From a virus: a DNA stretch of 64,000 nt. Both the position numbers and the translations under genes were made by a program. The stretch lies in IMG/VR virus record IMGVR_UViG_3300032267_001142, positions 62,001 to 126,000 of that record; one strand, written 5' to 3'. Numbering within the stretch: position 1 is the stretch's first letter; each line of letters opens with the position of its first letter. Positions 18,138 to 55,605 of this stretch are shown piece after piece. The notes beneath the pieces were generated by a model that was not told the origin of the DNA, did no database searches, and saw nothing but the letters and a program-made list of their open reading frames with translations.

Positions 18138-18770
18138 TTATTCAGAAGCGAAAGGGTCGTCTTCAATTTCGATTTGCTCTTCCTGCTCCGGCGCTGGCGG
18201 AGCAGATTTCTTGCTGCCGCCCGATGCTTTTTTGGCCGGAGCTGCCGCTTGCTCGTCTTCTTCCTTCTGCTTTCTATCGAAGAACTCTTGGCGTCTCTTT
18301 TTATCTTCGGCGTAAAGAGCGCTAAAGATATGGTCGAGCGAGAACTTCAGGAACTCTCGCAACACGGTGAATTCGCTCGGGGCGAGACCAATGGAAAAGG
18401 TTTGCTTGTCCGATGAGTCCTCCAAGTTGGTTCTCGTTATACGCAGCCCGAGCCCGCGTAATTTACCACGCTGGTCACCTTCGGTTTTTTCGTAGAATGG
18501 AGCGAAATGGATTTGGGAATTGTTCTTGGCGCTCTTGTGAAAGGTGCTGAACTCAATTAACTTTTCGCAAGTGAGCAGAAGCCCACCAATCTCAGTAAGA
18601 CTGAACTTCGCATTAGCTTTTTCGCCACCCTTGAAAGAGCCAGTTCGTTCGGACTCATTCCATCCAGTCTGCTTGACGAATTCGACAAAAAGACACTGCT
18701 CTTTGCTGTTGAAGGAAAAGGAGCACGCTGCCCCAGTATTACCGCGATTAGGCTTATAGAATTGTAGCAT
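18138..18770 (-). CDS. Candidate ssDNA-binding protein with acidic DPF tail
   Basis: 210 residues. The N-terminal 165 residues are a compact beta-rich domain with FKGGEKANAKFSL and FSTFHKSAKNNSQIHFAPF, resembling PC4-like or other phage ssDNA-binding folds. Residues 165-200 are a Lys/Ala/Pro-rich flexible linker and the end is EIEDDPFASE, reminiscent of the acidic partner-binding tail of SSB proteins. It lies just downstream of the polymerase gene but has its own promoter, consistent with a protein needed in large amounts. The family is not certain. Confidence 0.5.
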   Translation of the reverse strand: MLQFYKPNRGNTGAACSFSFNSKEQCLFVEFVKQTGWNESERTGSFKGGEKANAKFSLTEIGGLLLTCEKLIEFSTFHKSAKNNSQIHFAPFYEKTEGDQRGKLRGLGLRITRTNLEDSSDKQTFSIGLAPSEFTVLREFLKFSLDHIFSALYAEDKKRRQEFFDRKQKEEDEQAAAPAKKASGGSKKSAPPAPEQEEQIEIEDDPFASE

Positions 18771-18776
18771 ATTTAT

Positions 18777-18806
18777 GTATTATTACGGAATTGGGTCTGA
18801 AGTCAA
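18777..18806 (-). promoter_or_regulatory. Near-leaderless promoter for the SSB-like gene
   Basis: Minus strand: -35 TTGACT (18806-18801), 18 bp spacer, -10 TAATAC (18782-18777), 6 bases to the ATG at 18770. The elements overlap the 3' end of the polymerase gene. Confidence 0.5.
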
Positions 18807-21800
18807 GGCTCTATTATTAGATTCCATGTCTTTTTGCACGTCCTTGAATTTGCAGTAGATTTTCAAAGACTGGTCGCTTATTCTGTCTAGAAAGATTGAA
18901 TCGCCGTGCTTTTTTCCAGAACAGAAGACTATCGAGTCTTTCGCTGGGAGCGACCCGTCGTGTAGAGCTTTCGTTCCTGATATCTTGTCCCCATCTTTTG
19001 TAGCGAAGATTAACGCTGTAATTGTTCCGGTCTCATCGCTGAGCTGCCAGCGAGCGTATCTAGTCTTCTTCTCGTTTTGTGCGACACCTTCGTAAGGCTT
19101 GTCGGAAACGACGGCTACAAAGCTACAGCGCTCACCTTCACTGGCACCGTTAAGTTCCTCTACGCTATACAAGACGCTGCCATCTGGAGAGTCAAATATT
19201 TCTGACAGCTTGTGGCTGTAGCTGTATCCGAGCAGCATTCTTTCGTAAAAGAAGTTTGCCATTTCTAAGTTTTTACGGTTCATTTCCCAAATAGCTCGGA
19301 ATGGCTCGCTTTTCTTTTTTATCGTTGCCATTCGTGACGGCTTGATTACGGGTTTACCGTCCGCGCCGATACCCGAAGCTAGTGAGTTGATTACCGCCGA
19401 TAAGCTGTGTTTGAACTGCTCGCCTCTATCAATACAGGCTTTCTTTTCTCTATCCGTCAAAAGGTTCCATACTTGAGCCTCCCAGACTAACCTTGGGCGG
19501 TCATAAGAACCTCCCACGCCATCAAAGCATCCGCTTTGTATTAGCGCCGCCAAGACGTTTACGGTGAGTCCGGCGTTATTAGCGGCCTCGAAAATCTCGA
19601 ACTTGGACGAAAACTCATCTCGAAAACAATTTAGCTTTGCGATGGACTTGTCGGAAATGCCTTTAATCATTGAGAGTCCAAATCTGATATCAGGCCCCTC
19701 GATAGTGAAATCCATCTCCGACTTCAAAATATTAGGAGGCAAAAGCTTGATGCCAAAGTTGCGAAGCTCCATTTGGATTTTGGTTATTTCCTCGACTGGC
19801 TTCGGTTCATTTTTTGCTTCTTGTAAAAGAGCGCAAAAGAACTCTTTCGGATACTTGAATTTCAAGTAAGTGGTTAGCGCCGATAGGCTGGCATAGGCTA
19901 CGCTGTGGCTATTTGAAACGACTAAACCGTCCGCATAAAAATTATGGTCTTTGTGAGCTACCTCTAAATCTAGCGTCGTTTTGAAGCCTATTGATTCATA
20001 AGATTTAACTTTTGTAACTCGCCTGTCTCTACACACGATATTTAAGTTTTGAGAAATAATATCCCTTAGTGGTCTCATTATCATGTCGTCGCAAAGGAGT
20101 TTATGTTCCATTGAGCATTTTATCACCTTCCCATCTTCCATCTCTACTTCAAATAGCTCCCGTTTCGCTTCCGTTTTATCTAAGACTTTGACGTAGCGAT
20201 TCACACGCTCATCTGTATCGAAACCGAGGACTTCGTCTCCTATTTGAATATCGAACAGCATCTTGTCTCCGTTTGGAGTCTCGACAACGGTGTCAGGCGA
20301 AAGGCATTTATTAAATGAATAGCTCGCGCTTTCTTCGAGAATCTTCCACAACATACTGCCAAGCTCTTCTGGCAGACCTTGTTCTTTTATTTTTTCTGAA
20401 ATCTTCTGCTCCCATTCTTTAACTTCGTTAATCTTCTTTTTCCCAACCACGCGACGCAAAACCTCGGCCTGCTCTAGACTAAACCCGATGGCGTTGGCGA
20501 GCTGCATCATTTGCTCCTGATACAGACATACGTTTCTGGTGGCCGCTAATATCTTGGCGAAAAGATGATGCACTTTATCTGCTTTTACGTTATTTTTCGC
20601 GTATCCCTCCAAATAGCTAAGCGCACCAGGCCTAGCAATAGCAACCACGTCGGCCAATTCCGTTAAATTCTTTGGTTTAACCTCTCTACACACTTTGAGG
20701 TTAGTAGGGGCTTCTAGCTGGAAAATACCATGCGCCGTATTCAGGTTTTGTAAATTATCGTAAATTACGGGGTCGTCATGGATATTTACGTCGTCGAACT
20801 TAATCCCGACGCTCTTCATAACGCGAGAAACGACGGAGCAGCAACGCACGCCAAGCAAATCCAGCTTGAGCGTCAAATAAGCGACTTCGTCCATCGTCAA
20901 AGAGGTGGCTATATTGATGTCGGCCTCTTCCTCGGAGGACTTCGCTTTTTCTAGAGGCAGAAATTCTGCTACTTCATCGAAAGAAACTACATAACCAGAT
21001 GGGTGCGTGCCTCTGTTTCTGATGATGTCTCTTAGACGTAGAGATATATCATAAGCTTCTGGGTTTTTAACAGCCCAGTTATTAAAGTCCTTGCTGCCAG
21101 CTTTTGCCTTTTCCAAATCCTCAACGACGCCGAACTTCTTTGGAATCATGTCCGACACGGTTTTCATTTCTTCGTCGCTATAGCCGCAGACGATTTTTCC
21201 GATATCTTTGATTAAGACCTTTCCGCTTAGAGTGCTTAAGGTACTGATTTTGCATACCTTTTTCGGATACAACGAATGCAAATAAGCGACGACCTCTTTT
21301 CTGCGCTCTTGCTCGATGTCGATATCAACGTCTGGGGCCAAGCTTCCGTCAATATACGTCACTCCATCGACTATTTTCTTCTTCGCTCGTGTCTCAGAAA
21401 CGAATCTTTCAAAAAATAGACCATAGCGAATGGGGTCGTTTGCCGTAATCCCAAGAAGGTAGAAAACCAGACTACCGCCAGCCGAGCCGCGTCCATAGTC
21501 TCTGGCGATGCCGGTCCTATCACAAAAAGACGTGACCTTCCACACTAACAAGACATAATCGACAAATCCGAGCTTGTCGAAGAGCGCTAACTCTTTCTTA
21601 ACGCGCTCGGCGTATTCCGCCCACTTGCTTTTTTGTATCTTCTTTGTAAATCCGGCACGAGCTAAGCACGTCAAGAACTCCAAATTAGAACTTCCCAAAG
21701 GGGCGCTGGCAGCAGCGCGCTCTTCATCAGAAATAGAAATCGAAGGCAACCTTACATACCCGTAATTCTCAAACTTGTAATCAGTGAACTGTTCTATGAA

Positions 21801-21818
21801 GTTTTCTTCTGCTGGCAT
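18783..21818 (-). CDS. dnaE: DNA polymerase III alpha subunit, catalytic part, intein-containing, lacking PHP
   Basis: 1011 residues including a 132-residue intein; about 879 after splicing. Core polymerase motifs are clear: GRGSAGGSLV (110-119), catalytic PDVDIDI (162-168), LKLDLLG (317-323), IFQLEAP (365-371), the YQEQMMQLA and LRRVVGKKK region (433-462), SFNK joined to SHSVAYA across the intein, and a C-terminal OB-like domain near residues 860-960. It begins about where the PHP domain of a normal DnaE ends. That PHP domain is a separate gene at 23969-24727. AAGGAG lies six bases before the ATG. It overlaps the helicase gene by 25 bases, in the operon order PHP, exonuclease, helicase, polymerase. 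Confidence 0.9.
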   Translation of the reverse strand: MPAEENFIEQFTDYKFENYGYVRLPSISISDEERAAASAPLGSSNLEFLTCLARAGFTKKIQKSKWAEYAERVKKELALFDKLGFVDYVLLVWKVTSFCDRTGIARDYGRGSAGGSLVFYLLGITANDPIRYGLFFERFVSETRAKKKIVDGVTYIDGSLAPDVDIDIEQERRKEVVAYLHSLYPKKVCKISTLSTLSGKVLIKDIGKIVCGYSDEEMKTVSDMIPKKFGVVEDLEKAKAGSKDFNNWAVKNPEAYDISLRLRDIIRNRGTHPSGYVVSFDEVAEFLPLEKAKSSEEEADINIATSLTMDEVAYLTLKLDLLGVRCCSVVSRVMKSVGIKFDDVNIHDDPVIYDNLQNLNTAHGIFQLEAPTNLKVCREVKPKNLTELADVVAIARPGALSYLEGYAKNNVKADKVHHLFAKILAATRNVCLYQEQMMQLANAIGFSLEQAEVLRRVVGKKKINEVKEWEQKISEKIKEQGLPEELGSMLWKILEESASYSFNKCLSPDTVVETPNGDKMLFDIQIGDEVLGFDTDERVNRYVKVLDKTEAKRELFEVEMEDGKVIKCSMEHKLLCDDMIMRPLRDIISQNLNIVCRDRRVTKVKSYESIGFKTTLDLEVAHKDHNFYADGLVVSNSHSVAYASLSALTTYLKFKYPKEFFCALLQEAKNEPKPVEEITKIQMELRNFGIKLLPPNILKSEMDFTIEGPDIRFGLSMIKGISDKSIAKLNCFRDEFSSKFEIFEAANNAGLTVNVLAALIQSGCFDGVGGSYDRPRLVWEAQVWNLLTDREKKACIDRGEQFKHSLSAVINSLASGIGADGKPVIKPSRMATIKKKSEPFRAIWEMNRKNLEMANFFYERMLLGYSYSHKLSEIFDSPDGSVLYSVEELNGASEGERCSFVAVVSDKPYEGVAQNEKKTRYARWQLSDETGTITALIFATKDGDKISGTKALHDGSLPAKDSIVFCSGKKHGDSIFLDRISDQSLKIYCKFKDVQKDMESNNRALTSDPIP
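19911..20306 (-). other. Mini-intein in DNA polymerase III alpha (132 residues)
   Basis: In-frame protein insertion, polymerase residues 505-636. It begins with CLSPDTVVETPNG (block A), has a block-B-like CSMEHKLL, a block F-like DLEVAHKDHNFYADG, and ends VVSN before an extein Ser. No homing endonuclease domain is present. It interrupts the conserved FNK/SHSxAY motif, about four residues downstream of the site used by the cyanobacterial split DnaE intein. The last residues before Asn are Val-Val-Ser rather than the usual His, so splicing kinetics may be atypical. Confidence 0.9.
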
Positions 21819-23317
21819 AGGAATCTCCTTAGTTTATCAATTTGTGGATTTATTTCCAGCACTTTCTTCGCTCTGGTAGCGGCGACATAGATGAGGTTCA
21901 TTTCTTGCGGGTCTACATCTTTATCGTCCGCGAGTCTTTCTTTTCCTGTATCTGGGTCAGATATGACCATGTCTGAAAAGTCATCAGTGAGTTTCACTTG
22001 GTCGAATTCCAAGCCCTTACTTCGGTGAGCAGTTACGAATTTTATGTCCGCTTCGCTCGGGTCTATAGATTTCGTTATTATTTTTCTGATGATGTCGGGG
22101 ACTTCATGAGTATATTCTAGGACCACAGAGGTTCTCGCTTGCAATTCCAAATCAGGTGCATCCTTATCCCTGATTACCCTAAGAAAGGATTCAAAATTGT
22201 CAAACCTCTTTATGTAGGAGTCCTTTATTCCAGCTTTGTTTCTGGCAAAAAGGTGATAAACGTCCTCTATTCGGTCGAAGAAGTAGTGCTTATATGGACT
22301 CCAGTTATCCTGTTCCCTAGTTCCTACCCATCCGAAAGTCGCGAAGTTGCCTCGTTCTTTTAATGTCTGCGCGGCTAAACGAAATAGAGAACCATTCGTT
22401 CTAGCGATTACCGTATAAGGCTTGCTCTCCTCTACTTTTTGTAGCTTGTCTCCTTTATTCAGACCGACGACGGCGCAAGTCTCTTTTTTCATGTTCTTAA
22501 GGATAGTATTAGCAACCTCTGAGACGCTGTCTCCGAAGCGGAAGCTGCCAGTAAGCCTCATCTCTATATTCCCTTTCAGTTTGTCCAGAGCGTTTTCCGC
22601 CCATCTAAATGCATAAATTGCTTGATGAGAGTCTCCGACGGCAATCCTCGCACAGTCTTGCGACTGGAAGATGTCGATGACGACGTCGCTAGTGTCGTGC
22701 GCCTCGTCCAGTAGAATTACGTCGTAATCGAGTTTCGGCTGCGAGAGTTGAAAAAGCTTAAGATACCCGTCGTGCGTCATAGGCATTTTGAGGTTTTTTG
22801 TGTCGCACATCTTTTCCCACACCTCTTTGGCTTTCTTGATTAGGAAAGCTATAGTCTCTGGGCTCTTCTTCCATGAAAGCTCCTCCACTGAGGATTCGGA
22901 ATCGAGCACTAGGTGTTTTTCACAGATGTCTCTGTCGGAGCTTGCGGCGAACTTTCCGATTACATCTGCGATGTATTTCGCTACTGGATACGTCAATCCC
23001 GCGACTTGGTCTTTGACATCGTGCGGTCTTAGATATCCAAGCTTGTGCTTGTAGATGAAACCTTTCTTATTAAACGCGACAGAGTGAGTCGTCGCACACT
23101 TGACGTTAGAAGGGAAAGCCTTTCTGGCTTCGGCGGCGACCGAAGTGTTAAAGGCCAAATAAAGAAAAGACTTGTCAGGATATGCTTTAGTGTATTCCCT
23201 TAGCGTTGTCGTCTTGGTGCATCCGGCAAATGCGTAGATTTTCATGAAATCTCCGCGCTTAAGATTGACCGCCACTATATCTTTCTGCTCTTGAGTTAAA
23301 TTCAGTGTATTTTCCAT
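21794..23317 (-). CDS. SF1 (UvrD/FBH1-like) DNA helicase
   Basis: 507 residues from the ATG at 23317, three bases after the preceding stop; an earlier in-frame TTG would overlap the exonuclease gene and is disfavoured. SF1A motifs: Q-motif LTQEQ, motif I AFAGCTKTTTL, motif II VILLDEAHD, motif III VGDSHQAIYAFR, motif IV-like LTGSFRFG, motif V VTAHRSKGLEFD and motif VI NLIYVAATRAKK. The overall pattern is closest to FBH1-like helicases. Motif I lacks the usual Gly before the catalytic Lys (CTK instead of TGK). It sits between the exonuclease and polymerase genes, suggesting a replisome or recombination role. Confidence 0.85.
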   Translation of the reverse strand: MENTLNLTQEQKDIVAVNLKRGDFMKIYAFAGCTKTTTLREYTKAYPDKSFLYLAFNTSVAAEARKAFPSNVKCATTHSVAFNKKGFIYKHKLGYLRPHDVKDQVAGLTYPVAKYIADVIGKFAASSDRDICEKHLVLDSESSVEELSWKKSPETIAFLIKKAKEVWEKMCDTKNLKMPMTHDGYLKLFQLSQPKLDYDVILLDEAHDTSDVVIDIFQSQDCARIAVGDSHQAIYAFRWAENALDKLKGNIEMRLTGSFRFGDSVSEVANTILKNMKKETCAVVGLNKGDKLQKVEESKPYTVIARTNGSLFRLAAQTLKERGNFATFGWVGTREQDNWSPYKHYFFDRIEDVYHLFARNKAGIKDSYIKRFDNFESFLRVIRDKDAPDLELQARTSVVLEYTHEVPDIIRKIITKSIDPSEADIKFVTAHRSKGLEFDQVKLTDDFSDMVISDPDTGKERLADDKDVDPQEMNLIYVAATRAKKVLEINPQIDKLRRFLCQQKKTS

Positions 23318-23319
23318 GA

Positions 23320-23967
23320 TTATAATTCGACTTTCCAAATCAGTTTTTTCCAGATTTTTTCCAATAATTGCACATCGTAAAGGGCGTCGTGCGCCAGGCT
23401 CGGGTCATAAGGCACCTCTAGTTCGGAGCAAAGACTGAGTATAGAAGTTTTCAAACCTTTCTCAAAATAACCAGCCATTTTGTATTGAAACGCGAGAAAC
23501 TCGATTGAGTCTTTAGGAATTTTTACGCCTAGCTTCCACGCTTTAGCTATAGCATTAGAATCTATAAGACGACCCAAATAAGAGTAGTCTTCGGATAAAC
23601 CGAGTGCCCTTCTATGGATTTGGTGCAAATAGATATCGAAGTTCAAAGCGTTATGCGCGACGAGAGTGACTTTAGGGTCTGAAAGAAGAGACTCTATACG
23701 TTCGAGACCTTCTTCTGGAGTGATGCCGTATTGGTCTACTTTGGGTTGATAGAATCCTGTAATTCTTGCCGCCCCTTTGCTAACTCTAAGGTTCGGCCAC
23801 TTAACCAAAAATGAACCTTCGCTGATAGTTCGTTCCAAAGTGCAGTGCTTCCATCCCCACTGCCACGGAAGGTTCTCCGGAGCTGCTAAATTCAAATTAC
23901 AAGACTCGCAGTCGAAAAAAACATACTCGCGGGTTTTGTCGTATCTTATCAGTTCTTCGCCTATCAT
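23320..23967 (-). CDS. DEDDh 3'-5' exonuclease, probable proofreading subunit
   Basis: 215 residues from the ATG at 23967, preceded by GGAG and directly following the PHP gene stop; an upstream TTG overlapping that gene is less likely. Exo I VFFDCES (DxE), Exo II LVAHNALNFD and Exo III HDALYDVQLL give the DEDDh catalytic set of the DnaQ family. It lies between the detached PHP domain and the rest of the polymerase operon, an order that recalls PolC, where the exonuclease is inserted within PHP. It is the best candidate for the replicative proofreader; a second DnaQ-family protein lies at 31016-31588. Confidence 0.85.
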   Translation of the reverse strand: MIGEELIRYDKTREYVFFDCESCNLNLAAPENLPWQWGWKHCTLERTISEGSFLVKWPNLRVSKGAARITGFYQPKVDQYGITPEEGLERIESLLSDPKVTLVAHNALNFDIYLHQIHRRALGLSEDYSYLGRLIDSNAIAKAWKLGVKIPKDSIEFLAFQYKMAGYFEKGLKTSILSLCSELEVPYDPSLAHDALYDVQLLEKIWKKLIWKVEL

Positions 23968-23968
23968 A

Positions 23969-24727
23969 TTAGGAGTTCTCCAAAAAGTTGTCAAAACCGA
24001 ATCGCGAAGAAGAGTAGTGTTCTAGATTCGGGCATTCGAGAGTTGAGCGTTTACCGATGCATTTAAGGGCTTGATGTGCTCTGGCGTGAGCCTTAGAGTA
24101 GTAATAAACAGTATGGGCTTTTACTTGTTTAGATTGGTCTACATAACCGTTCAAATAGTGCTGAATCAAACCTTCAAATGGCAGTCCATGCCTCTCGCTA
24201 AAGAAGGTAGGAACCACAGGGAACTCTGGTGTGGCCATATGCGCGTATTCGAGAGTGTTTCTCGCGATAAACGACGAGTAGAATGGTATTCCTAGTGTTA
24301 AATTATCCGTCCACAGTCGCTTAAGTGCTGTGTTGCCTATCCTTGGGCGATAATAAAACCCATGAAGACTCGCGTGAGAGGAGATAGCGATTAAGTCCTT
24401 ATATCCTTGCGAGTTTTTAGCGAATACGATTATACCGCTTTCAGTGCGCAAAGAGTCGGGCGTTTTATCTTCTTCGTTCTGACAGAGGCAAAGTTTCAGT
24501 CCGAAAGTGAACGGAACACCGCACTCTTTCGAGGTTTTGAAGGCCGACCAGAAGCCGGAGATAGATGAGTCTGTGATGACCACTCTCGGCAATTTATGTT
24601 TGGCCGCGATAGAAAAGATACCTACCGGAGCGGGCGTGTTTAGGTCGGGTCTATCTTTCTCGCTCTGAAATCCGATAGTCAAAACCGAGTCGGTTAGGGA
24701 GTGGTCTGAGACAAAAAGAGGTATCAT
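23969..24727 (-). CDS. Stand-alone PHP domain of DNA polymerase III alpha
   Basis: 252 residues matching the N-terminal PHP domain of DnaE: an opening FVSDHSLTDSVLTIG where DnaE has its His-rich first motif, GVPFTFGLKLCL, and the characteristic GYKDLIAISS followed by GFYYRPRIG. The protein ends where the polymerase domain should begin; that domain is encoded separately at 18783-21818. The metal-binding histidines of the first PHP motif are largely absent, so phosphoesterase activity is doubtful and a structural role is more likely. First gene of the replisome operon, with its own promoter at 24736-24764. Confidence 0.75.
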   Translation of the reverse strand: MIPLFVSDHSLTDSVLTIGFQSEKDRPDLNTPAPVGIFSIAAKHKLPRVVITDSSISGFWSAFKTSKECGVPFTFGLKLCLCQNEEDKTPDSLRTESGIIVFAKNSQGYKDLIAISSHASLHGFYYRPRIGNTALKRLWTDNLTLGIPFYSSFIARNTLEYAHMATPEFPVVPTFFSERHGLPFEGLIQHYLNGYVDQSKQVKAHTVYYYSKAHARAHQALKCIGKRSTLECPNLEHYSSSRFGFDNFLENS

Positions 24728-24766: not shown

Positions 24767-25756
24767 CTATTTATTGAAATGCGGGCATCCCGCATACCTT
24801 CTCTTGACTACATACTGCCCCTTGCTTTCGTCTGCCGTCATTTTTTCAAGAGAGGTCGAAACAGTCTCGTCCTTATCGTTGCAAAGGCTGTAGTATTCAA
24901 AAGGAAACTTGAAAGAACATCCCCATTTGGGGCTTCCATCCGCTTTGGTCTCGTTGGGCTTCTTGCATCTTCCACAGAGCAGCGGGCCAGAAAATCCCTC
25001 AGATGGCATCGGTTTTTTCGCAGCAAGATTAGTAGTGGCGTCTCTAGGAGAGAATCTGCCTATCTTATCGCTAGTTTGCTTAAGGTATTCCTCGAATTCT
25101 TCGAGTTCGGCTTCGGAAAATCTAAGGCGTTGAATCGGCGCGTCGGGGAACTTCAAAAATAGAAACTCTACTACGGGCTGTAACGCTGGGTTAATCTTCT
25201 TCGAGGCGAGGGAATACATTTTCGCTTGGACATTGTCAGTTAAGTCTTCGCCGTCGAACTTCTTCTTGGAGGACTTGTAGTCGACAATCCTAGCTAATCC
25301 CTTTTCTGGATATAACGCGTATTTATCAATAAAACCCGCAATCCTATAGTGACCTAGAGGGTCAACAATATCGAACTTCTTTTCGCACTCTAAGCTTGCG
25401 GCGCGGCCCTTCTCACAGAAGAAGTCATTAGACAGCGCGGTGATTACCATATCGTCAATTTTGTCGATATCACTTGCGCACATACCGCTTGCAGCGTGCG
25501 TGCTCAGATAAGTCTTGACGTATCTATGAATTGCCGCGTCCTTTTTAATGCTTCGCGGATGAGCCATTATTAACTCAAACTTCTGTCTGTTTTTGGGTTT
25601 CAACAGATGCTCAAGAATCATATGGCAACAACTACCAGACAAAGCTCCCGTATTGGTTTTGTCAGGAAGCTTGAGCACATACTTCGCGTGATAAATCCAA
25701 GAGCAGCTTTCAAATGTCTTTATTCGGCTGGCCGAAAGAGGAACTAAGTCTTTCAT
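24767..25756 (-). CDS. PD-(D/E)XK exonuclease, RecB/Cas4-like, probable Fe-S cluster
   Basis: 329 residues from the ATG at 25756, one base after the upstream stop (in-frame earlier starts overlap that gene). SASRIKTFESCSWIYHAKYV at the N-terminus is typical of RecB-family PDDEXK_1 nucleases and carries the first Cys. GFIDKYAL followed by IVDYKSSKKK is the D...DxK active site, with a downstream Gln motif (QAKMYSL). The C-terminus has CGRC, WGCS, SLCN and AGCP, enough Cys to complete a 4Fe-4S site as in AddB and Cas4. Likely processes DNA ends for recombination or host DNA breakdown. Confidence 0.8.
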   Translation of the reverse strand: MKDLVPLSASRIKTFESCSWIYHAKYVLKLPDKTNTGALSGSCCHMILEHLLKPKNRQKFELIMAHPRSIKKDAAIHRYVKTYLSTHAASGMCASDIDKIDDMVITALSNDFFCEKGRAASLECEKKFDIVDPLGHYRIAGFIDKYALYPEKGLARIVDYKSSKKKFDGEDLTDNVQAKMYSLASKKINPALQPVVEFLFLKFPDAPIQRLRFSEAELEEFEEYLKQTSDKIGRFSPRDATTNLAAKKPMPSEGFSGPLLCGRCKKPNETKADGSPKWGCSFKFPFEYYSLCNDKDETVSTSLEKMTADESKGQYVVKRRYAGCPHFNK

Positions 25757-25757
25757 A

Positions 25758-27089
25758 CTAATCGAAATAGACATGACCTGTCTCTTTAAGTCCGTCGTTA
25801 TCAATGACTAGATAAGACTGGCGCGGTCTATTCTTGAGGTTATTAACGCTCGCGTGCATATCGCCTCCGATGACGGTCGAAAACATTACGAATTGAAAAT
25901 CGTTATACTCGACGTGCTCCCAGTGATGCCTGTCTCCGACGATAAACAGCCTCTCTTTGACGCCTATAAGATTTTCTGGGTTTTGCAACAGGAGGCTCTG
26001 AACGTGCGTTTGCAGCTTCGCGTCGCTTGCTGTAGGAACGTAAGCCCTTTCAATAGAGTCCGCACCGTGGTCGAGAAGGAATAGCGTAGTGCCTTCCTTG
26101 AAGGCGGCGGGACGTGATGAGTGATGAAAGAAGTTGAGGTTCTCTTGCTGAGTGAAGGCTTTTTCAAGAGCCCTGAAGAGTGCCATATCACCTTCATAGT
26201 TGTGATTTCCTCCGACCGAATGCACGTCGACGACGGGAATCTGAGAGTATATCATCGAGATGAACTGATATAGACTTTGCAACGCATAATCGAATTGCTC
26301 TTCTCTCACACAATCATAAAGAAGCTCGGTGCCCCTTCCCGTTTTGCCGTTGACGCTGTGAATCAGGTCTCCCAGCCCTAAGATAACTACCTTTTTGTAT
26401 CTATAGGTTCTTGCCGCCGCTCTTTGGAGTATCTTCTCCGCGAACTTCTTAACGCAGGCAACGGTTTTTTCAGTAGTCCAGCTTGGGCGGTTGAACATAT
26501 ACCTTTCATTGCTAGCGCTGCCGAAATGCAAATCACTAAGGCCAATAACTAACACCTCGTCACTTACCTCTTTTGTGGAGGTTTCTATGTGTAGTCTAGG
26601 CACTCTTGCTGGCTTCCAGTTTTCGACAGCCAAGCCGAAAGGGTCAAGCGTTCCATTCTGGAAGGCTTCCCAGTTTTCGGCGCTTTTTTGAGTGGCTTTC
26701 CATAATTCCTTTTCGTAGCTCTGCGCGACTGCCAGCTTCTTGCTCTCTAGGAGATTCGCTGCGCAAGCCTCTACGGGAAGTTCTGTTAACTCTTCGTTAG
26801 AGAGCGGCAGACTGTCACGCGTCAGTCCGTGAACCTTTTTATACTCCTCAAGTATCTTCACAGGTATACCGAATTTAGCTGCGACTTCCTCGGTGGTTTT
26901 TGACGGCGAAAACAGGTTGGAAATATGAGCTACGATATTACGATGAACGGAACCCTTTAGCACTAAAGGCTTAGAGAGACTCTTAAGCGTAGTGATATAA
27001 ACGTCAGTCTCTCCATTATAGACGACGTTTGGCCTTGGTTCTTGTATCGGTTCTTGCACCGGCACTGAGATTTTAGTTTTTCTTGGCAT
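25758..27089 (-). CDS. Calcineurin-like metallophosphoesterase with N-terminal HTH-like region
   Basis: 443 residues. Metal-binding motifs are SDLHFGS, LGLGDLIHS, GGNHNYEGD, a mid HGAD and GDRHHWEH, the full metallophosphoesterase set in the C-terminal two thirds. Residues about 62-95 (KTTEEVAAKFGIPVKILEEY) look like a helix-turn-helix. Phage genomes often carry such proteins among replication genes; substrate unknown (DNA end or nucleotide). Overlaps the DHFR gene by 17 bases. Confidence 0.8.
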   Translation of the reverse strand: MPRKTKISVPVQEPIQEPRPNVVYNGETDVYITTLKSLSKPLVLKGSVHRNIVAHISNLFSPSKTTEEVAAKFGIPVKILEEYKKVHGLTRDSLPLSNEELTELPVEACAANLLESKKLAVAQSYEKELWKATQKSAENWEAFQNGTLDPFGLAVENWKPARVPRLHIETSTKEVSDEVLVIGLSDLHFGSASNERYMFNRPSWTTEKTVACVKKFAEKILQRAAARTYRYKKVVILGLGDLIHSVNGKTGRGTELLYDCVREEQFDYALQSLYQFISMIYSQIPVVDVHSVGGNHNYEGDMALFRALEKAFTQQENLNFFHHSSRPAAFKEGTTLFLLDHGADSIERAYVPTASDAKLQTHVQSLLLQNPENLIGVKERLFIVGDRHHWEHVEYNDFQFVMFSTVIGGDMHASVNNLKNRPRQSYLVIDNDGLKETGHVYFD

Positions 27090-27549: not shown

Positions 27550-27827
27550 TTTAAGTATAAGAAATTAGAAGACTTGAGAGGCTCTGGCTTTTTGTTATTG
27601 ATAGCCGTTTTTTGTTCTCTACGCAAGCACCAAAGCTCGTTCGACTTATCTAGGCGCATCACTACTATCGAACCATCGAGATGCGCGGTAGTAGTCGCGG
27701 GCAAAAATCCTAAACCTTGAAGTTCTTTTAACGTAGATACGAAAACATTATCGGGCCTGCCGGAGCTGGCCGATTCGTATTCGCGGCATGCTTTATTTAT
27801 CATTTCTGAGATTTTAGAACGTTTCAT
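27546..27827 (-). CDS. Small conserved-looking protein, unknown
   Basis: 93 residues, basic, with a possible beta hairpin (HLDGSIVVMRLDKSNELWCLRRE). No family recognised. It overlaps the primase gene by 14 bases and the DHFR gene by 4, so it is a genuine operon member between primase and DHFR. Confidence 0.55.
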   Translation of the reverse strand: MKRSKISEMINKACREYESASSGRPDNVFVSTLKELQGLGFLPATTTAHLDGSIVVMRLDKSNELWCLRREQKTAINNKKPEPLKSSNFLYLK

Positions 27828-28725
27828 GTTTTGACCGGACTGCGTTATACCACGTTTTGACTTCTTCGACCGTCATTTCAAAGAAGTCTTTTTTAGGAGG
27901 AAGCTCTATGAATACTTTGCTTTCGTCATAGTATTTTAGAAGTTTGTCTTTCGCATCTTGCGCGGCGATATTGCCAATAGAATCGTTATCGACTTCATTA
28001 TTGGTCGAAATGATTATCCTCTTTGGGTTCTCTGAAAGAATCTTTTTCAATAAAGCTCCACTCAGTTCTATGCCGAAAAGACAAAACGCGTTGGTTATGC
28101 CCGCTTCATAGAGCCTTAGCACGCACCCAATACTCTCTACCAGTATGATTCCCTCGTCTGGATGAACGGAGTTGAGATGGGACGGGAAAATGAATGCTTT
28201 TTTACGACCGATGATTTTCCACTTGGGGGTGTTTTCGGGAGGAACCTTTTGGTGCCATCGACCAGCAAACCCTATTATTTTATCCTTATCAAAGATAGGA
28301 AAACAAACCCTTCGGTTTAGTTTACCGCTCGAAGCGGTGCCAGCTCTAAATAGCCGCATAGTATCCTCGGATATTCCTCTAGAAGTAAAAAAGTCCCACA
28401 TCGGCATCAAGCGCTTTAGGCAAGATTCGTCGTATACGATATCCTTTTTCAAGTCTTGAGTCGGTGTCGCTTCTTTGATTTCTACAGAATCTATACCCCC
28501 TTCATGATTCAGCAACTTCAATAGCAAGTCCAAGTCACCCCTTAATGGGTATTTTCCTGAAGCGCCGAAGTCTCTGAAGTTGCCATCTGACTTTCTGACG
28601 CACAAAGCTATGACGTTCTTGCCTCCACGGTAAAGCGCTGCCATTCTATAGTATGCTCCGTAGTCTTTAGGAGCATAGCCTTTACTGATTAGGAGTTCTA
28701 ATATATTAGTCTTCGAGGCGGTCAT
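27814..28725 (-). CDS. DnaG-type (Toprim) DNA primase
   Basis: 303 residues. The centre has a primase RNA-polymerase/Toprim region: RRVCFPIFDKDKIIGFAGR, then IILVESIGCVLRLYEAG (Glu 197) and ISTNNEVDNDSIG (Asp 246, Asp 248), the acidic Toprim triad. The N-terminus has no zinc-binding Cys cluster, so template recognition differs from bacterial DnaG. Encoded directly after the DnaB-like helicase with a 20-base overlap, a classical primase-helicase pair. Confidence 0.85.
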   Translation of the reverse strand: MTASKTNILELLISKGYAPKDYGAYYRMAALYRGGKNVIALCVRKSDGNFRDFGASGKYPLRGDLDLLLKLLNHEGGIDSVEIKEATPTQDLKKDIVYDESCLKRLMPMWDFFTSRGISEDTMRLFRAGTASSGKLNRRVCFPIFDKDKIIGFAGRWHQKVPPENTPKWKIIGRKKAFIFPSHLNSVHPDEGIILVESIGCVLRLYEAGITNAFCLFGIELSGALLKKILSENPKRIIISTNNEVDNDSIGNIAAQDAKDKLLKYYDESKVFIELPPKKDFFEMTVEEVKTWYNAVRSKHETF

Positions 28726-30235
28726 CGAGTGAATCGTCAGTTAGTGTATCGTTGTCGTGGTCTTGGGCTGGCTTTGCGGACTTGAAAGGTGCCGTAGCGC
28801 TCTGTCTTACTGTTGTAGCGAAGTCTCCCATTTCTTCGATATGAAAGCTGGTGACTTTGAAATGAAGAAAATTCTTTACTAGCGTGTTATTCGGTGTCTT
28901 TACTGGCGTTAGGGCCGCTTGCGCGTTCCTGCCAAGATGACGATGTTTAACGAACACGCCTTTTACAGTGCCGTATCTTCCATTTTCGGCAGCGATTTCT
29001 TCGTTCATCTTTGGTCGAAGCAATAGGGCGTGCGTCGCTTGCTGAGTGATTCGGTCAGATACACCAAATACGTTTTCAGTGTCATCGACGGTGGCCGCGT
29101 TTTTGTTTCCAACGATGCCTCCACGGTTCAACTGAACCGACGTCCAAAACGGATTGTTCAGTTCGTTCTTATAGAGGTTCTTCACGTCTTTGAGAAACTT
29201 GCCCATAACTTGCCATTCCTCGCCTCTGGCGTCCTCCAAATCGAACGCTTTGAGATAGTCGTAGTGAGTCAGAAATTTATTGCCTCGTCCGATTTTCGCA
29301 AGATAGAACCTCTTGATAAACCAAAGGATTTCAGTAGGAGACATCCTAGAGACGTCTTGATAATACATCTTTAGCTTTTTCACCCTTGGCCAAACAGACC
29401 TAACTAAAGCTGTGGTCTCCTTATTTTTCCTCCAATAGCCATGTTCAAGAGCGTCGTAAGAAACTTGCCCATTTGTCATCATGCTTACAGCGCGATACTG
29501 AAGTTCCTCTATAGACATTTCTCCTTGGTCTAAGTGAAGGACAGGAACGTCGTATTTGTCGGCCACATGAGTCATGTAGAACATGCCTGCGGCAGTTTTA
29601 CCGACTCCCGTTCGCGCCCCAAGAACGGTAATAGCTCCGTCGCGCAGCAACGAGCCGTATAACTCGTTTGTTTTCGGGAACGGCCCCATGAACCCGATTT
29701 CTTCTACCGGATTCTCTCCGCGTTCCTCTATCTTCTGCTCGATACTAGAGAAAATATCTACGAACTCTTCTGTCGACGACTCGAATCCTGCTATCTTTTC
29801 TGAAAAGATGGCGTCCGCTTCTTTCAGAATATCTGAGATGCCTGCGTCTTTGAGAGCTAGCATCCTTGTCTGCATCCGACCGGCCATCTCGGACAGTTCA
29901 CGTCTAACTGTCGTCTTTTTCAACTGCTTGAACCCTTCTATCGCCGCAAGTTCAGTCAGGCTTATTAAACGTAGCGACTCCAAATACTCCATCGGAGACA
30001 AATCGCTTTCGGAAAAGGTGATGTTGAGATTTTTTATCTTCTCGGCGAGAAGTATATCATTGAGTTCCGCTCCCACGGACAGAAACGATTTTATCGCGGC
30101 GTAGACTATCCGGTTCAGCTTGCTAACGAAGTCGGAATCGGTGACGACGGCCTCGACCTTGACGTAAAGGTCTGGGTATTTTAACAGTCCTGAAAGGCAG
30201 AGCCTCTCTAACTCAAAGTTGTGAATAACGGGCAT
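28706..30235 (-). CDS. Replicative DnaB-family DNA helicase
   Basis: 509 residues from the ATG at 30235. A TTG at 30280 is in frame, but a strong promoter lies between the two starts, so the ATG is preferred. The N-terminal helical DnaB-type domain (HNFELERLCLSGLL) is followed by a RecA-type ATPase: Walker A GARTGVGKTAAG at about 206-217, LHLDQGEMS (motif 1a), and FWTSVQLNRGG with the KHRHLGRN segment near the C-terminal end. The acidic tail may bind primase. Unwinds the fork with the primase downstream and the split polymerase. Confidence 0.85.
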   Translation of the reverse strand: MPVIHNFELERLCLSGLLKYPDLYVKVEAVVTDSDFVSKLNRIVYAAIKSFLSVGAELNDILLAEKIKNLNITFSESDLSPMEYLESLRLISLTELAAIEGFKQLKKTTVRRELSEMAGRMQTRMLALKDAGISDILKEADAIFSEKIAGFESSTEEFVDIFSSIEQKIEERGENPVEEIGFMGPFPKTNELYGSLLRDGAITVLGARTGVGKTAAGMFYMTHVADKYDVPVLHLDQGEMSIEELQYRAVSMMTNGQVSYDALEHGYWRKNKETTALVRSVWPRVKKLKMYYQDVSRMSPTEILWFIKRFYLAKIGRGNKFLTHYDYLKAFDLEDARGEEWQVMGKFLKDVKNLYKNELNNPFWTSVQLNRGGIVGNKNAATVDDTENVFGVSDRITQQATHALLLRPKMNEEIAAENGRYGTVKGVFVKHRHLGRNAQAALTPVKTPNNTLVKNFLHFKVTSFHIEEMGDFATTVRQSATAPFKSAKPAQDHDNDTLTDDSLDDRLED

Positions 30236-30244
30236 ATAGTTGGC

Positions 30245-30273
30245 ACTATATCCCGATTTCTTGACCTTGTCAA
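30245..30273 (-). promoter_or_regulatory. Near-leaderless promoter for the DnaB-like helicase
   Basis: Minus strand: consensus -35 TTGACA (30273-30268), 17 bp spacer, -10 TATAGT (30250-30245), 9 bases to the ATG at 30235. This decides the start codon of the helicase. Confidence 0.65.
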
Positions 30274-30276
30274 CGC

Positions 30277-30588
30277 TCAATCCTCTTCCGCCCCAGCTTC
30301 TTCGTCCCCACCTTCGGCTATGAAATTTGACATCGCGACTCCGTCTTTGATGCTTTCGCTGAAATCTTCCTCACGCGCTTTGAAATACTCTAACGCGTGG
30401 CGCTCCAAGCCCGATTGAATAATGACGTTGTCCGAGCAGTCCTCGATAACGACTTGCCCGTCTCCGTTTGCGTAAATCAAAATAAATCCACCTCCAGTGA
30501 ATTCATTAAGCCGCGTTAGAAAGTTTGCTGGAACTCCGGTATCTTTGGCCTTCATGGTGGTTTTTTGATGTGACTTATGGGGAATCAT
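30277..30588 (-). CDS. Small acidic protein, unknown
   Basis: 103 residues with a beta-rich centre (GGGFILIYANGDGQVVIEDC) and an acidic C-terminal tail (GGDEEAGAEED). No family recognised. It lies six bases after the nuclease gene stop and its end touches the helicase promoter. The acidic tail hints at protein interaction. Confidence 0.5.
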   Translation of the reverse strand: MIPHKSHQKTTMKAKDTGVPANFLTRLNEFTGGGFILIYANGDGQVVIEDCSDNVIIQSGLERHALEYFKAREEDFSESIKDGVAMSNFIAEGGDEEAGAEED

Positions 30589-30594
30589 AATAGA

Positions 30595-31023
30595 TTACAC
30601 CGGAGTCAGTTGGATTCCGTAGTTTTTGAAAAAGAACTCTCGCGTCAAAGGTAGGTCTGTTGGCTCGATTTCTACCAACGTAAATCCGTTTGCTACTGAC
30701 CACTCCCTTTTAGCCTCGTCTCTCACTATTTGCTCATGGAAGTTGAAGCGATTCTTGCCGTGAAAGAACGAATTATACTGACTGTGCTGTATTCCGTTGG
30801 TTTCGACAATAATCATTTTCGATAGATTCACCAAGTCGAAGCTGTATCTGGTTCCAGGAACGGGCATCTCCTCCAAGCATATGTCCATCTTCCAATACGG
30901 ATGAAGCCACACCTTCACCTGCTTTTGAAACTTGCTGCGGCAGTCCCCGCCCCAATCCACGGCGTAATTGGCCGTGTTGATGTTAACGAGCTTCTCGCTG
31001 CGATATTTCTTGAACTTAGGCAT
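30595..31023 (-). CDS. PD-(D/E)XK-superfamily endonuclease-like protein
   Basis: 142 residues. YSFDLVNLSKMIIVETNGIQHSQ gives the D...ExNGxQH variant of the restriction-endonuclease fold (as in VSR/DUF559-like nucleases), followed by DEAKREWSVANGFTLVEIEP, the usual helix and last strand. A single-domain nuclease. It could be a repair or recombination nuclease, or a homing-type nuclease. Overlaps the DnaQ-like gene by 8 bases. Confidence 0.65.
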   Translation of the reverse strand: MPKFKKYRSEKLVNINTANYAVDWGGDCRSKFQKQVKVWLHPYWKMDICLEEMPVPGTRYSFDLVNLSKMIIVETNGIQHSQYNSFFHGKNRFNFHEQIVRDEAKREWSVANGFTLVEIEPTDLPLTREFFFKNYGIQLTPV

Positions 31024-31588
31024 TTACTAGGCCCCGCTTTTGCATCTCGAAGAAGCACTCGGCGCAGGCCGAGCAATCCGCCAAGGCGTCGTGGGCGTTC
31101 TCGAACTCTTTTCCAAATAAGAAACGGTACAACTCTATGAGCTTGGGCCATTTATATCCGCCCCTCGTGCTGGGGATTTTGACTAGGTCGGTGGAGGACT
31201 TCATTGTGCAAAAATGACGACGACCATCCACGATGCTGTTCTTACCGAGTCTCGCGGTCTCAATATTCATCATGAATCTATCATAATCGCCATTGTGAGC
31301 TAACAAAAGCGGCTCAGCTTTCGTGAGCTGGTTAAACATACTTAGCGCGGAAAGAATAGGAACTCCGTATTTTTCACAGTCTAAGGTCGAGATGCCGTGG
31401 ATATCTTCAACCTTCTTCGGTATTGTCCAGCCGTCGGGCTTAATCAGCACATTCAATTGAGCTTTGATTTTCTTCTGCTCGTCATATAGTACCGCCGCTA
31501 ATTGCACAATTGACGGCTGCGACTGATGATTAAGCGGAAGGCTCGCGTTAAAGAATCCTGTCGTTTCTGTATCCCAAGATATAAACAT
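31016..31588 (-). CDS. DnaQ-family DEDDh 3'-5' exonuclease
   Basis: 190 residues, typical size. SWDTETTGFF (Exo I), LLLAHNGDYDRFMM (Exo II) and NAHDALADCSACAECF (Exo III) give the DEDDh residues. It is the second DnaQ-like protein in the window. Lying between recombinase and nuclease genes, it may serve recombination or repair rather than proofreading. Confidence 0.88.
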   Translation of the reverse strand: MFISWDTETTGFFNASLPLNHQSQPSIVQLAAVLYDEQKKIKAQLNVLIKPDGWTIPKKVEDIHGISTLDCEKYGVPILSALSMFNQLTKAEPLLLAHNGDYDRFMMNIETARLGKNSIVDGRRHFCTMKSSTDLVKIPSTRGGYKWPKLIELYRFLFGKEFENAHDALADCSACAECFFEMQKRGLVNA

Positions 31589-37481: not shown

Positions 37482-39635
37482 TTAAGCTTCACATGATTTA
37501 CAGGCCAAAATGCTTCTTCCTAGCTCTTGGGCGGGAGACGTGCTTCTCTGATAATACAAAGTTTTTACTCCTAATTTCCAAGCCTCAATCAGCAACGCGT
37601 TGACTTCTTTTACTGAAGCTTTTGGATGAATCATTAGATTGATTGACTGAGACTGGTCAATATATTTTTGGCGTTGAGCGGCTTGAATGATGATTTCTTT
37701 TTGGCTAATCTCTCCGAAGGTTTTGAAGACATCCCTCTCGTTGTCAGTCAAGAAATCGAGATGCTGCACTGAGCCGTCGTGAATGAGGATGTTTTGCCAT
37801 ACTTCCTGAGTATCCTTGCTGTGCTTTTTAAGCACTTCTTTCAAATATGGGTTTTTGTATGTGAATTTGCCTTTGGCCAAGTCTTTGACGAAGTAGTTAG
37901 AGTTAAGCGGTTCGATTGATGGGGAGACCTGCCCCAGAATGAACGAGGATGACGTTGTAGGGGCTATCGCCATCGTCGTGACGTTACGCAGCCCATAACC
38001 CTTCAAAAGCGGTGGCTCGCCAAATAGAACGGCCCTAACTTTATTAGCTTCGTGGTTTCTTTCGGCCAAGAACTTGCTGATTTTCACGTTCCACATTTTT
38101 GCGTCGAATGACTCAAAAGCAATGCTTTTTGATTGAAGGAACGAGTGCCAGCCTAATGTTCCCATTCCTAGGGCGCGTTGATTGACGGCAAAGCGGTATG
38201 CAGCTTCCATGAAGCGGATGCCTTTAACTTTGTCGATGTATTCCGACATGACCGCGTCCAAAAAGAGCGCGAAGACTTCTACCGCATCCGTCTGCATCCA
38301 TTCTTCTGCATGCAATAGGTTCATTGAACCTAAATCGCAAACAAAAGACTCGTCCCTATCTGAAGCTAGGGCTATCTCAGAACAGTTATGAACTAGGATG
38401 TTGTTCGCGAAGAAATTTTCAGTCTTTTCTACTGTGATATCGTAAACGGCTTCGACGTGAGTGTATCTTTTAATTTTTAGCGTATTAATGAACCGCTCAG
38501 ATAGTCCCGAAGCATTACCGTTAGCACTTTGTCTAAGAATATCGTCTTCTTTTAAGTCCTGCGCTTCAACGTATCCTCGGTTTTGTGTGTAGATTTTATG
38601 TTCAGGCGTGCATTTTATGACGTTGCCTTGCTCGTCCTCAATTTCAATAATTTCCGTCGACTCTCCCGTTTGCGAGAAGAGCTTAACCGAAGAATAAACG
38701 TCCTTGCCGGTTTCGATGTCAAAGGATTTTACTTCTACTGGTTTATCCATGTAAAAATCCAAATCCTTCATTCGGACAGTTAGTTCTTCACCTTCTACAC
38801 GAATTTGGACTAATGTATCGCCGGTCAGACACAGGTTGGAGGCGTGAATCTTCATTCCTTTATCTTTGTAGACTTGCGGGGCGTTGTTGTTCACCGTGTC
38901 CGAGAACATGATGTAAGGATAGCCAGACTCAAATCTCTTCTTGATGATTTTCGCCCAAAGCTCGCGCTTGTCTTTGTCGCCTGAAATCATGGACTCCATC
39001 CACGCATCGGAAACCGTGACGCCGATGCTCATATGTTGGATAGCGTGACCCTCGTTGCGAATCTGTAGAAACTCGGCAATATCTGGGTGTTCGACGGGAA
39101 GATACGCCGCAAAGTTGCCACGACGAACTCCAGACTGCGATACGACTTCAGTAATTACGTCATATATCTCCATGAAATGAACGGGACCGCTAGAGCGTCC
39201 ACCACCAGAAACTTTAGCGCCGCGCTCACGCAATGCCCCGAAATATCCAGAAGTGCCGCTGCCGTGCTTCGACATCATTCCTATCTCGGAGGCTTTATAG
39301 AGAATCTCCCCCATATCATCTCCGATATAAGAGCCATTACAACTAATCGGAAGTCCTCTTTTGAGGCCGAAGTTCGCCCACACCGGAGAGGCTAAAGAGT
39401 AGTAACCTTTCTTCATGTATCCGACGAACTTCTCCGCGAAGCCTTTTAGCGCTTCGTAGTCGGTGTCGCCGCTTTCGACTTTTCCATTACGGAAGTCTTC
39501 ATAGTCTTTCAGTAGAATCGCTTGGGCAGCGTCAGCTATCTCCTGAATGCGGACTTCTGGAGACTGTCCATTTTGCAAATATCCGCGCTCAAGAAATGTG
39601 CGGGATTTTTCGTTAAGCCAATAAAAATCTTTCAT
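37482..39635 (-). CDS. nrdA: Ribonucleoside-diphosphate reductase large subunit (class I), intein-containing
   Basis: 717 residues including a 149-residue intein; about 568 when spliced. HGSGTSGYFGALR, the active site ASNL joined to CSEI (radical Cys 418), NQRALGMGTLGW and APTTSSSFILG are class I large-subunit motifs. The C-terminal ACKSC supplies the redox-active swinging Cys pair. The protein starts at the point that follows the ATP-cone in bacterial NrdA, so the overall-activity allosteric domain is missing. It lies seven bases after the small-subunit gene. Confidence 0.92.
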   Translation of the reverse strand: MKDFYWLNEKSRTFLERGYLQNGQSPEVRIQEIADAAQAILLKDYEDFRNGKVESGDTDYEALKGFAEKFVGYMKKGYYSLASPVWANFGLKRGLPISCNGSYIGDDMGEILYKASEIGMMSKHGSGTSGYFGALRERGAKVSGGGRSSGPVHFMEIYDVITEVVSQSGVRRGNFAAYLPVEHPDIAEFLQIRNEGHAIQHMSIGVTVSDAWMESMISGDKDKRELWAKIIKKRFESGYPYIMFSDTVNNNAPQVYKDKGMKIHASNLCLTGDTLVQIRVEGEELTVRMKDLDFYMDKPVEVKSFDIETGKDVYSSVKLFSQTGESTEIIEIEDEQGNVIKCTPEHKIYTQNRGYVEAQDLKEDDILRQSANGNASGLSERFINTLKIKRYTHVEAVYDITVEKTENFFANNILVHNCSEIALASDRDESFVCDLGSMNLLHAEEWMQTDAVEVFALFLDAVMSEYIDKVKGIRFMEAAYRFAVNQRALGMGTLGWHSFLQSKSIAFESFDAKMWNVKISKFLAERNHEANKVRAVLFGEPPLLKGYGLRNVTTMAIAPTTSSSFILGQVSPSIEPLNSNYFVKDLAKGKFTYKNPYLKEVLKKHSKDTQEVWQNILIHDGSVQHLDFLTDNERDVFKTFGEISQKEIIIQAAQRQKYIDQSQSINLMIHPKASVKEVNALLIEAWKLGVKTLYYQRSTSPAQELGRSILACKSCEA
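38385..38831 (-). other. Mini-intein in the reductase large subunit (149 residues)
   Basis: Residues 269-417: starts CLTGDTLVQI (block A), contains CTPEHKIYTQ (block B) and AVYDITVEKTENFFANN (block F), and ends LVHN with Cys 418 as the +1 residue (block G). No endonuclease domain. The +1 Cys is the catalytic thiyl-radical Cys of the enzyme, so the active site only exists after splicing. Confidence 0.92.
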
Positions 39636-54650: not shown

Positions 54651-55595
54651 ATGAGTACTAATAAAGACCTATCTGTCGGAGTTATCGTCGGGCGCTTTCA
54701 ATGCGTGAATTTACACGCTGGGCACCGTTTCATTTTCGATGAGGTTATACGAAAACATAGCCGCGTCATTGTCTTCCTCGCTACAGGAGTACTGAAGGCG
54801 ACCGGAAATAATACGCTCTCCTATGCGGAACGCGAAAAGATGATACGCGAAGTATATCCTGACTTGGAAATTCATGAGTTGGAGAATCATCAGTCTGACC
54901 ACGAGTGGAGTCTGAACTTGGATAGGAAAATAGCTAGAGCAATACCTTTCGGAGTAAAGGCGCTGTTGTATTGTGGCAGAGAAGGTTTTAACAAGTACTA
55001 TTCGGGGAGTATAAGCGTGAACGTATTAAAAGCTCCAGAAGAGATTCTTGATTCTGCAACCGACCAAAGAAGAGAGGCTATATTCACTCCCATTTCGGAG
55101 AGAAATGCGTCGTTCCGAGCTGGCGCAATTTCGGCGGCTAATTCGCGCCCACCTACAGCCTATCAGACAGTAGACGTGGCGATACTTGATAAGAGCGGAC
55201 AAATCTTGTTGGCCGGAAAGCCGACGGACCCGCCGCATCTGTGGAGATTTGTGGGGGGTTTTTCCGAGCCTAGCTCACCGTCGCTAGAGCACGACGCTCT
55301 GAAAGAGGCGCGTGAAGAAGCGGGGCTTGAGGTCGCAAATCCCAAATATGTAGGTAGCCTTCTAACTGGCGACTGGAGATATCGTTGGGAAAAGGACAAA
55401 ATCAAGACCGCGCTATTTACGGTAGATTACGTCTTTGGAGCTGCGGTAGCGGGCGATGACGTTAGCCGCGTGCGGTGGTTTAACATCAAGGACGTGACAC
55501 TCGACATGATTGTTGAAGGCCATAGGCCGCTATGGGAAATGCTCAAAAGACATCTCGAAGATAAGAGTTGTCGTCCTGCACAAAGCGTAGTATAA
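54651..55595 (+). CDS. nadM: Bifunctional NMN adenylyltransferase / Nudix hydrolase
   Basis: 314 residues. VIVGRFQCVNLHAGHRFIF is the adenylyltransferase start (HxGH), with SYAEREKMI (the S/TxxR-like segment) and a C-terminal Nudix domain: WRFVGGFSEPSSPSLEHDAL, then KEAREEAGLEV. Same order as NadM-Nudix proteins. Makes NAD from NMN supplied by the nicotinamide phosphoribosyltransferase encoded next. Start two bases after the previous stop. Confidence 0.88.
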   Translation: MSTNKDLSVGVIVGRFQCVNLHAGHRFIFDEVIRKHSRVIVFLATGVLKATGNNTLSYAEREKMIREVYPDLEIHELENHQSDHEWSLNLDRKIARAIPFGVKALLYCGREGFNKYYSGSISVNVLKAPEEILDSATDQRREAIFTPISERNASFRAGAISAANSRPPTAYQTVDVAILDKSGQILLAGKPTDPPHLWRFVGGFSEPSSPSLEHDALKEAREEAGLEVANPKYVGSLLTGDWRYRWEKDKIKTALFTVDYVFGAAVAGDDVSRVRWFNIKDVTLDMIVEGHRPLWEMLKRHLEDKSCRPAQSVV

Positions 55596-55596
55596 A
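55568..55596 (+). promoter_or_regulatory. Near-leaderless promoter for the NAMPT gene
   Basis: -35 TTGTCG (55568-55573), 17 bp spacer, -10 TATAAA (55591-55596), 9 bases to the ATG at 55606. The elements lie in the end of the nadM gene. Confidence 0.6.
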
Positions 55597-55605
55597 AGAC
55601 CCATC

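Follow-up and report, generated by a model that had tools for sequence, protein, structure and literature searches.

RESULTS

Organization of the locus

The window analyzed here, a 64,000-nucleotide stretch corresponding to bases 62001 to 126000 of a 186,105-bp IMG/VR virus record (a phage), carries on its minus strand a replication operon in which the parts of a C-family DNA polymerase are encoded separately; the order of genes is DnaB-like helicase, primase, PD-(D/E)XK nuclease, PHP domain, DEDDh exonuclease, superfamily 1 (SF1) helicase, polymerase catalytic chain, and probable single-stranded DNA-binding protein. An original prediction made from the sequence alone had proposed that DnaE is divided here into a PHP gene and a polymerase gene with the exonuclease and SF1 helicase encoded between them, and both the division and the gene order are upheld: the two products differ in their Pfam content, they match phrog_405 at successive parts (67 to 273 for the PHP protein and 318 to 1096 for the polymerase), and the 252-amino-acid upstream protein has the fold of a PHP domain. 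The accompanying description of these genes as all overlapping was correct only for the helicase and polymerase, which share 25 nucleotides (nt), whereas the most probable starts of the exonuclease (ATG 23967, directly after an in-frame GGAG, rather than TTG 23994) and of the helicase (ATG 23317) leave gaps of 1 to 2 nt.

A detached PHP protein that has lost its metal site

The PHP protein (23969 to 24727, minus strand) matches PF02811 at 4.5e-11 and the Taq alpha subunit at 1.2e-7. An AlphaFold2 model built from 42 aligned sequences had a predicted local distance difference test score (pLDDT) of 89.9 and a predicted template modeling score (pTM) of 0.88, and the best 23 PDB matches retrieved with it by Foldseek were without exception alpha subunits of C-family polymerases or PHP-epsilon chimeras, headed by Taq and E. 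coli polymerase III (Pol III) alpha (E values of 1e-12 to 1e-10; query template modeling score [TMq] of 0.67 to 0.75), with DnaE (E value of about 1e-12) ranked ahead of PolC (best E value of 6e-9).

Loss of the PHP metal residues, also anticipated, was borne out when the nine metal-ligand positions defined previously (PMC3666897) were examined in an alignment that set 42 PHPs of the family against the PHPs of E. coli and of other phage DnaEs. The motif HHDHEH[C/H]DH was absent from all 42, and all or nearly all of the nine ligands have been replaced, mostly by residues that are themselves conserved; the prevailing series is L/I, K, variable, gap, R/K, K, F, S, and Y/F. The third position falls in a gappy stretch, which makes its assignment uncertain (8 of the 42 have D there), and the loop of the fourth is an alignment gap. 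Conservation of the replacements is close to complete at E. coli positions 69 (R/K, 40/42), 83 (K, 41/42), 201 (S, 41/42), and 203 (Y/F, 42/42). All nine ligands, as HHDHEHCDH, were intact in the 10 PHPs sampled from other phage DnaEs, four of them also split (the family's one fused member was excluded), and the PHP tree places the family on a long stem branch of 2.15. In bacteria, a variant PHP correlates with the presence of a separate exonuclease (PMC3666897), and the combination of lost metal ligands and a dedicated operon exonuclease in this phage matches that pattern. Some PHP proteins are extended at the C terminus by about 180 residues (L036, 8012 to 9367; L069, 1751 to 3070; L081, 5298 to 6617); the extension occurs in two versions of unlike appearance and has no Pfam family match.

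The catalytic chain, its intein, and the exonuclease

The 1,011-amino-acid polymerase chain (18783 to 21818, minus strand) comprises palm, fingers, HhH, and OB regions and was recognized by the Pfam families DNA_pol3_alpha (PF07733; 1.4e-52), finger domain (2.3e-29), and HHH_6 (3e-16), with a Hint/intein insert; no PHP domain was detected in it by Pfam. It begins at the PHP/polymerase boundary, with an ATG at 21818 preceded by AAGGAG, and its catalytic Asp triad (D166, D168, and D317 in L004 numbering) is invariant across 39 sequences. Its PDB matches were alpha subunits of the Taq (1e-67), E. coli, and mycobacterial types, PolC being absent down to an E value of 1e-3; by sequence, the chain is closer to DnaE than to PolC. 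The insert is a contiguous mini-intein of 132 residues at FNK/SHS (19911 to 20306, minus strand) that lacks a homing endonuclease, identified from Hint/Intein_splicing matches, similarity to the gp41-1 and DnaE intein structures, and its boundaries; its removal would leave a mature polymerase of 879 residues. As had been predicted, the separation of PHP from polymerase is not at the intein.

The exonuclease (23320 to 23967, minus strand) matches phrog_192, "DNA polymerase exonuclease subunit," at 2e-17, and its DEDDh site (D28, E30, D120, H202, and D207) is invariant in 41 of 41 sequences.

Conservation of the split

Relatives were gathered with polymerase, PHP, and exonuclease queries, the polymerase-based searches being unbiased towards a split PHP, and 223 distinct IMG/VR loci were left once duplicates and loci with less than 3 kb of upstream sequence had been taken out. 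PHP, DEDDh exonuclease, and polymerase are separate genes, in that order, in 221 of these, where they form a module with the DnaB, primase, and PD-(D/E)XK nuclease genes; the spacing between the three varies, some overlapping and others lying far enough apart to accommodate further genes. The exceptions are L105, in which PHP and polymerase are fused, and L026, whose examined stretch lacks PHP and exonuclease and whose 54-kb record has no PHP match; as that record is a fragment, nothing follows from the absence. The PHP family is present in at least 555 contigs and the polymerase family in at least 577. Both genes are under purifying selection, with ratios of nonsynonymous to synonymous substitution rates (dN/dS) for PHP of 0.04 to 0.13 in the six pairs of relatives with estimable dS, dS being saturated in the others. 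A PHP identical to that of the window occurs in another IMG/VR record (L002; 107,636 bp).

A second, complete PHP-containing DnaE elsewhere in the genome, or a different fold for the 252-residue protein, would speak against a genuine split. The entire 186-kb record contains exactly one PF07733 match and one PF02811 match, on separate genes, and the small protein is a PHP, so neither objection applies. Nine further records of 144 to 219 kb likewise contain one PHP match and one Pol3 match apiece; with the window's record included, the two are separate in 9 of 10 and fused only in L105. No family A or family B polymerase (PolB, PF00136) was matched in the five records searched for them. The split is a stable and ancient arrangement, not a broken gene, and its carriers are widespread, uncultured, large phages. 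Contigs of relatives were found in metagenome-assembled genomes (MAGs) labeled Flavobacteriaceae, Flavobacteriales, and Proteobacteria, a weak pointer to the host.

A fused relative

Relatives with a fused form had been suggested as a check, and a single such contig was found: L105 (IMGVR_UViG_3300005330_000014; 208,233 bp) encodes a 1,138-amino-acid chain that matches the PHP profile over residues 1 to 250 and the polymerase profile over residues 257 to 1112, with the exonuclease as a separate upstream gene. That the two are joined with almost no added residues supports the view that PHP and polymerase are parts of one enzyme. Two polymerase trees place L105 as the sister lineage of the split members (supports of 82 and 93), a topology consistent with a single split after the divergence of L105, but in the PHP tree it is nested among split members (support of 89); given this conflict, the trees do not decide between loss of an ancestral fusion and a later re-fusion.

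A second split at the intein site

In six distinct loci (L007, 3726 to 6701; L100; L138; L140; L143; and L144), the polymerase gene has a further break, located at the FNK/SHS site of the intein, with the N-intein on one polymerase half and the C-intein on the other, and these are apparent natural split inteins. A gene of about 312 codons lies between the halves in L138 and L144 and has weak matches to MTES_1575-type endonucleases, with a NUMOD3 motif in L138 also, and in L140 a NUMOD4-HNH domain is fused after the N-intein. The layout of L138 and L144 resembles a "fractured gene" arrangement that was reportedly described from metagenomes in a 2009 paper. Interrupted polymerases were also seen in other phages. 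The DnaE-like polymerase of Alicyclobacillus phage KKP_3916 (L089, 5869 to 12264) is spread over at least four successive open reading frames, all annotated as hypothetical, perhaps owing to introns or inteins, and in Bacillus phage G (L186, gp329 to gp331) the DnaE-like gp329 apparently ends early; next come a homing endonuclease gene (gp330) and gp331, which contains a fragment of a polymerase.

Neighboring genes

The gene between exonuclease and polymerase (21794 to 23317, minus strand) encodes a UvrD-like SF1 helicase (UvrD_C, 2.2e-12). The original prediction had named it in the series of split genes, but at this position it is limited to the window's genome and an identical contig (L002/L006), and it is therefore a lineage-specific insertion and not a component of the module. 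Conserved neighbors, as judged from synteny, are the PD-(D/E)XK nuclease upstream of PHP (24767 to 25804, minus strand; PDDEXK_1, 1e-18), a DnaG-type primase (27814 to 28725, minus strand; phrog_47, 6.7e-15), and a DnaB-like replicative helicase (28706 to 30280, minus strand; DnaB_C, 8.7e-13). The gene downstream of the polymerase (18138 to 18770, minus strand) is also conserved in position; its product gave no family match in Pfam and PHROG searches and is probably a single-stranded DNA-binding protein, to judge from its acidic C-terminal tail, IEIEDDPFASE, which resembles the tail of such proteins.

Elsewhere in the window, the large subunit of ribonucleotide reductase (37482 to 39635, minus strand) contains an apparent intein (CLTGDT...VHN), and a nicotinamide phosphoribosyltransferase gene (phrog_448, 6e-121) lies beside one for a cytidyltransferase/NUDIX protein (54651 to 57036, plus strand), the two constituting a phage NAD salvage pair with RNA ligase and DNA ligase genes nearby.

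DISCUSSION

We suggest that this phage lineage builds the core of a DnaE-type (Pol III alpha) replicase from three individually encoded proteins. DNA synthesis would fall to the catalytic chain, with its palm, fingers, HhH, and OB regions; the 252-residue PHP protein would dock noncovalently on the polymerase at the site usually occupied by a covalent PHP, where, free of metal, it would serve as a structural scaffold and most likely not as a nuclease; and the DEDDh exonuclease encoded between them would provide proofreading. We hold this account, in its docking, its loss of PHP catalysis, its scaffold role, and its assignment of proofreading, with good confidence. The broader proposition, that an obligate three-protein C-family core is used throughout the lineage, with PHP as an independent, metal-free, removable, and exchangeable scaffold and with some members requiring four genes by virtue of a split intein, is one towards which we lean with more reserve.

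Several observations limit or weigh against this account. In each of the 41 exonuclease sequences, just 17 or 18 residues follow the final Asp of the active site, and the proteins so lack the long C-terminal tail, a defining feature of bona fide epsilon, that binds the PHP domain of alpha (PMC3666897); in E. coli that tail makes the PHP contact, and the docking of the phage exonuclease is thus left unexplained. The window's genome also encodes a second DEDDh exonuclease of canonical DnaQ-like type (31016 to 31588, minus strand; PF00929, 9e-15). An AlphaFold2 model of the fused L105 chain, built on an alignment of unpaired PHP and polymerase rows, reached a pTM of 0.70 and gave correct domain folds, but with a linker pLDDT below 50, a noncanonical placement of PHP, and a root mean square deviation of 15 to 17 Å from solved alpha subunits over the whole chain. 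Covariation between the proteins, examined in 142 paired sequences (about 80 to 90 effective), did not separate inter- from intraprotein pairs and had no power. We infer physical assembly of PHP, exonuclease, and polymerase as the most likely outcome. The modular, trans-assembled holoenzyme envisaged in the original prediction is partly supported, by separate and conserved PHP and exonuclease genes, purifying selection, and a fused relative, the complex itself being presumed.

A detached PHP might no longer serve the polymerase and might have acquired another function, such as ligand binding in a pocket lined by the conserved K, R, S, and Y/F residues. The conservation of the residues that replace the metal ligands and the length of the PHP stem branch are in keeping with this idea, but PHP retains its operon position beside exonuclease and polymerase, it is covalently joined to the polymerase in L105, and basic replacements that substitute for the metals have been described in the inactive PHP domains of E. 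coli-type alpha subunits (PMC3666897); we consider a new function unlikely. Slightly less likely still, in our judgment, is a polymerase that acts alone or with host factors, proofreading being supplied by the second exonuclease or by the host and the operon neighbors being cotranscribed without forming a complex. No sliding clamp or clamp-loader match (PF02768 or PF13177) was found in the window's record, although a divergent clamp is possible, and host factors are thus probably used; the second exonuclease would fit such a scheme, but within the limited flanks available it was not seen in relatives other than the identical contig, whereas the exonuclease between PHP and polymerase recurs in 221 loci with its DEDDh residues retained in every aligned sequence. 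Gene breakage was an option raised in the original prediction. Recent breakage of a full DnaE gene, or an assembly error, that left decaying or artifactual fragments, a reading to which the helicase present between the parts in the window's genome only and the interruption of phage polymerase genes elsewhere, as in phage KKP_3916, might seem to lend color, is already refuted by conservation of the same split in 221 distinct loci; purifying selection on both genes and the identical PHP in a second record also speak against it, and it has next to no chance of being correct. Assembly in trans is favored over such breakage by this family-wide conservation, by selection, and by the naturally fused relative.

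The detached PHP bears on the role of this domain in C-family polymerases that do not use it as a nuclease. Its proposed tasks in E. coli are to stabilize the enzyme and to position epsilon, but there it is a covalent domain, and mutation is the only way to alter it; a PHP protein that is separate by nature permits direct omission and swap experiments.

Comparison with known systems

Location of PHP in the same polypeptide has been described as universal for C-family polymerases (PMC12926913), a description of DnaE-type Pol III alpha from which this family departs, since PHP has a gene of its own in 221 of the 223 loci. A close parallel is the E. coli-type combination of DnaE1 and epsilon (PMC3666897), which likewise pairs a DnaE-type polymerase and a PHP without an intact metal centre with a separate DEDDh exonuclease; the phage system differs in that its PHP is a separate protein, in that more ligands are lost (five of nine are replaced in E. 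coli), and in that its exonuclease has no epsilon tail. PolC also combines PHP, exonuclease, and polymerase, but in one chain with the exonuclease inserted within PHP, whereas the phage exonuclease is a separate gene that follows PHP; with both the polymerase matches and the PHP fold nearer to DnaE, the analogy with PolC drawn in the original prediction is not sustained. The same three modules occur together in Bacteroidetes DnaE1 with an N-terminal exonuclease (PMC3919608; L355 and L356 in our data), there as a single Exo-PHP-Pol chain, and the phage family groups elsewhere in trees. DnaE1s of this kind occur in the very Flavobacteriaceae MAGs in which contigs of the phage family are also present; an origin by capture of the Bacteroidetes Exo-PHP-Pol gene was considered and receives no support from the trees.

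Among phages, C-family polymerases formed from separate proteins were reported by Iyer and colleagues (PMC7824862) in group 2.2 jumbo phages, which have a family B polymerase and, next to it, a minimal Pol III alpha that is devoid of PHP and encoded in two pieces; in those phages the break runs through the catalytic module, whose two genes are distant from each other, whereas here the catalytic chain is intact and no PolB was matched. In the open-access literature searched, we found no description of a split that removes PHP alone. PHP and polymerase are nevertheless neighboring separate genes in cultured phages, namely Rhodococcus phages Grayson (gp102/gp103) and Trina (gp101/gp102), Gordonia phage Terapin (gp65/gp67), and Bacillus phage vB_BpsS-140; a publication that covers the Rhodococcus phages names just a Pol III alpha subunit and does not remark on the split, and the vB_BpsS-140 genes (L087, 6749 to 10356) are unannotated in the deposited record. 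These phages, unlike the present family, keep all nine PHP ligands and have no exonuclease gene between PHP and polymerase, and they stand apart from it in trees, which implies separate events: the junction between PHP and polymerase has broken repeatedly, at least four times.

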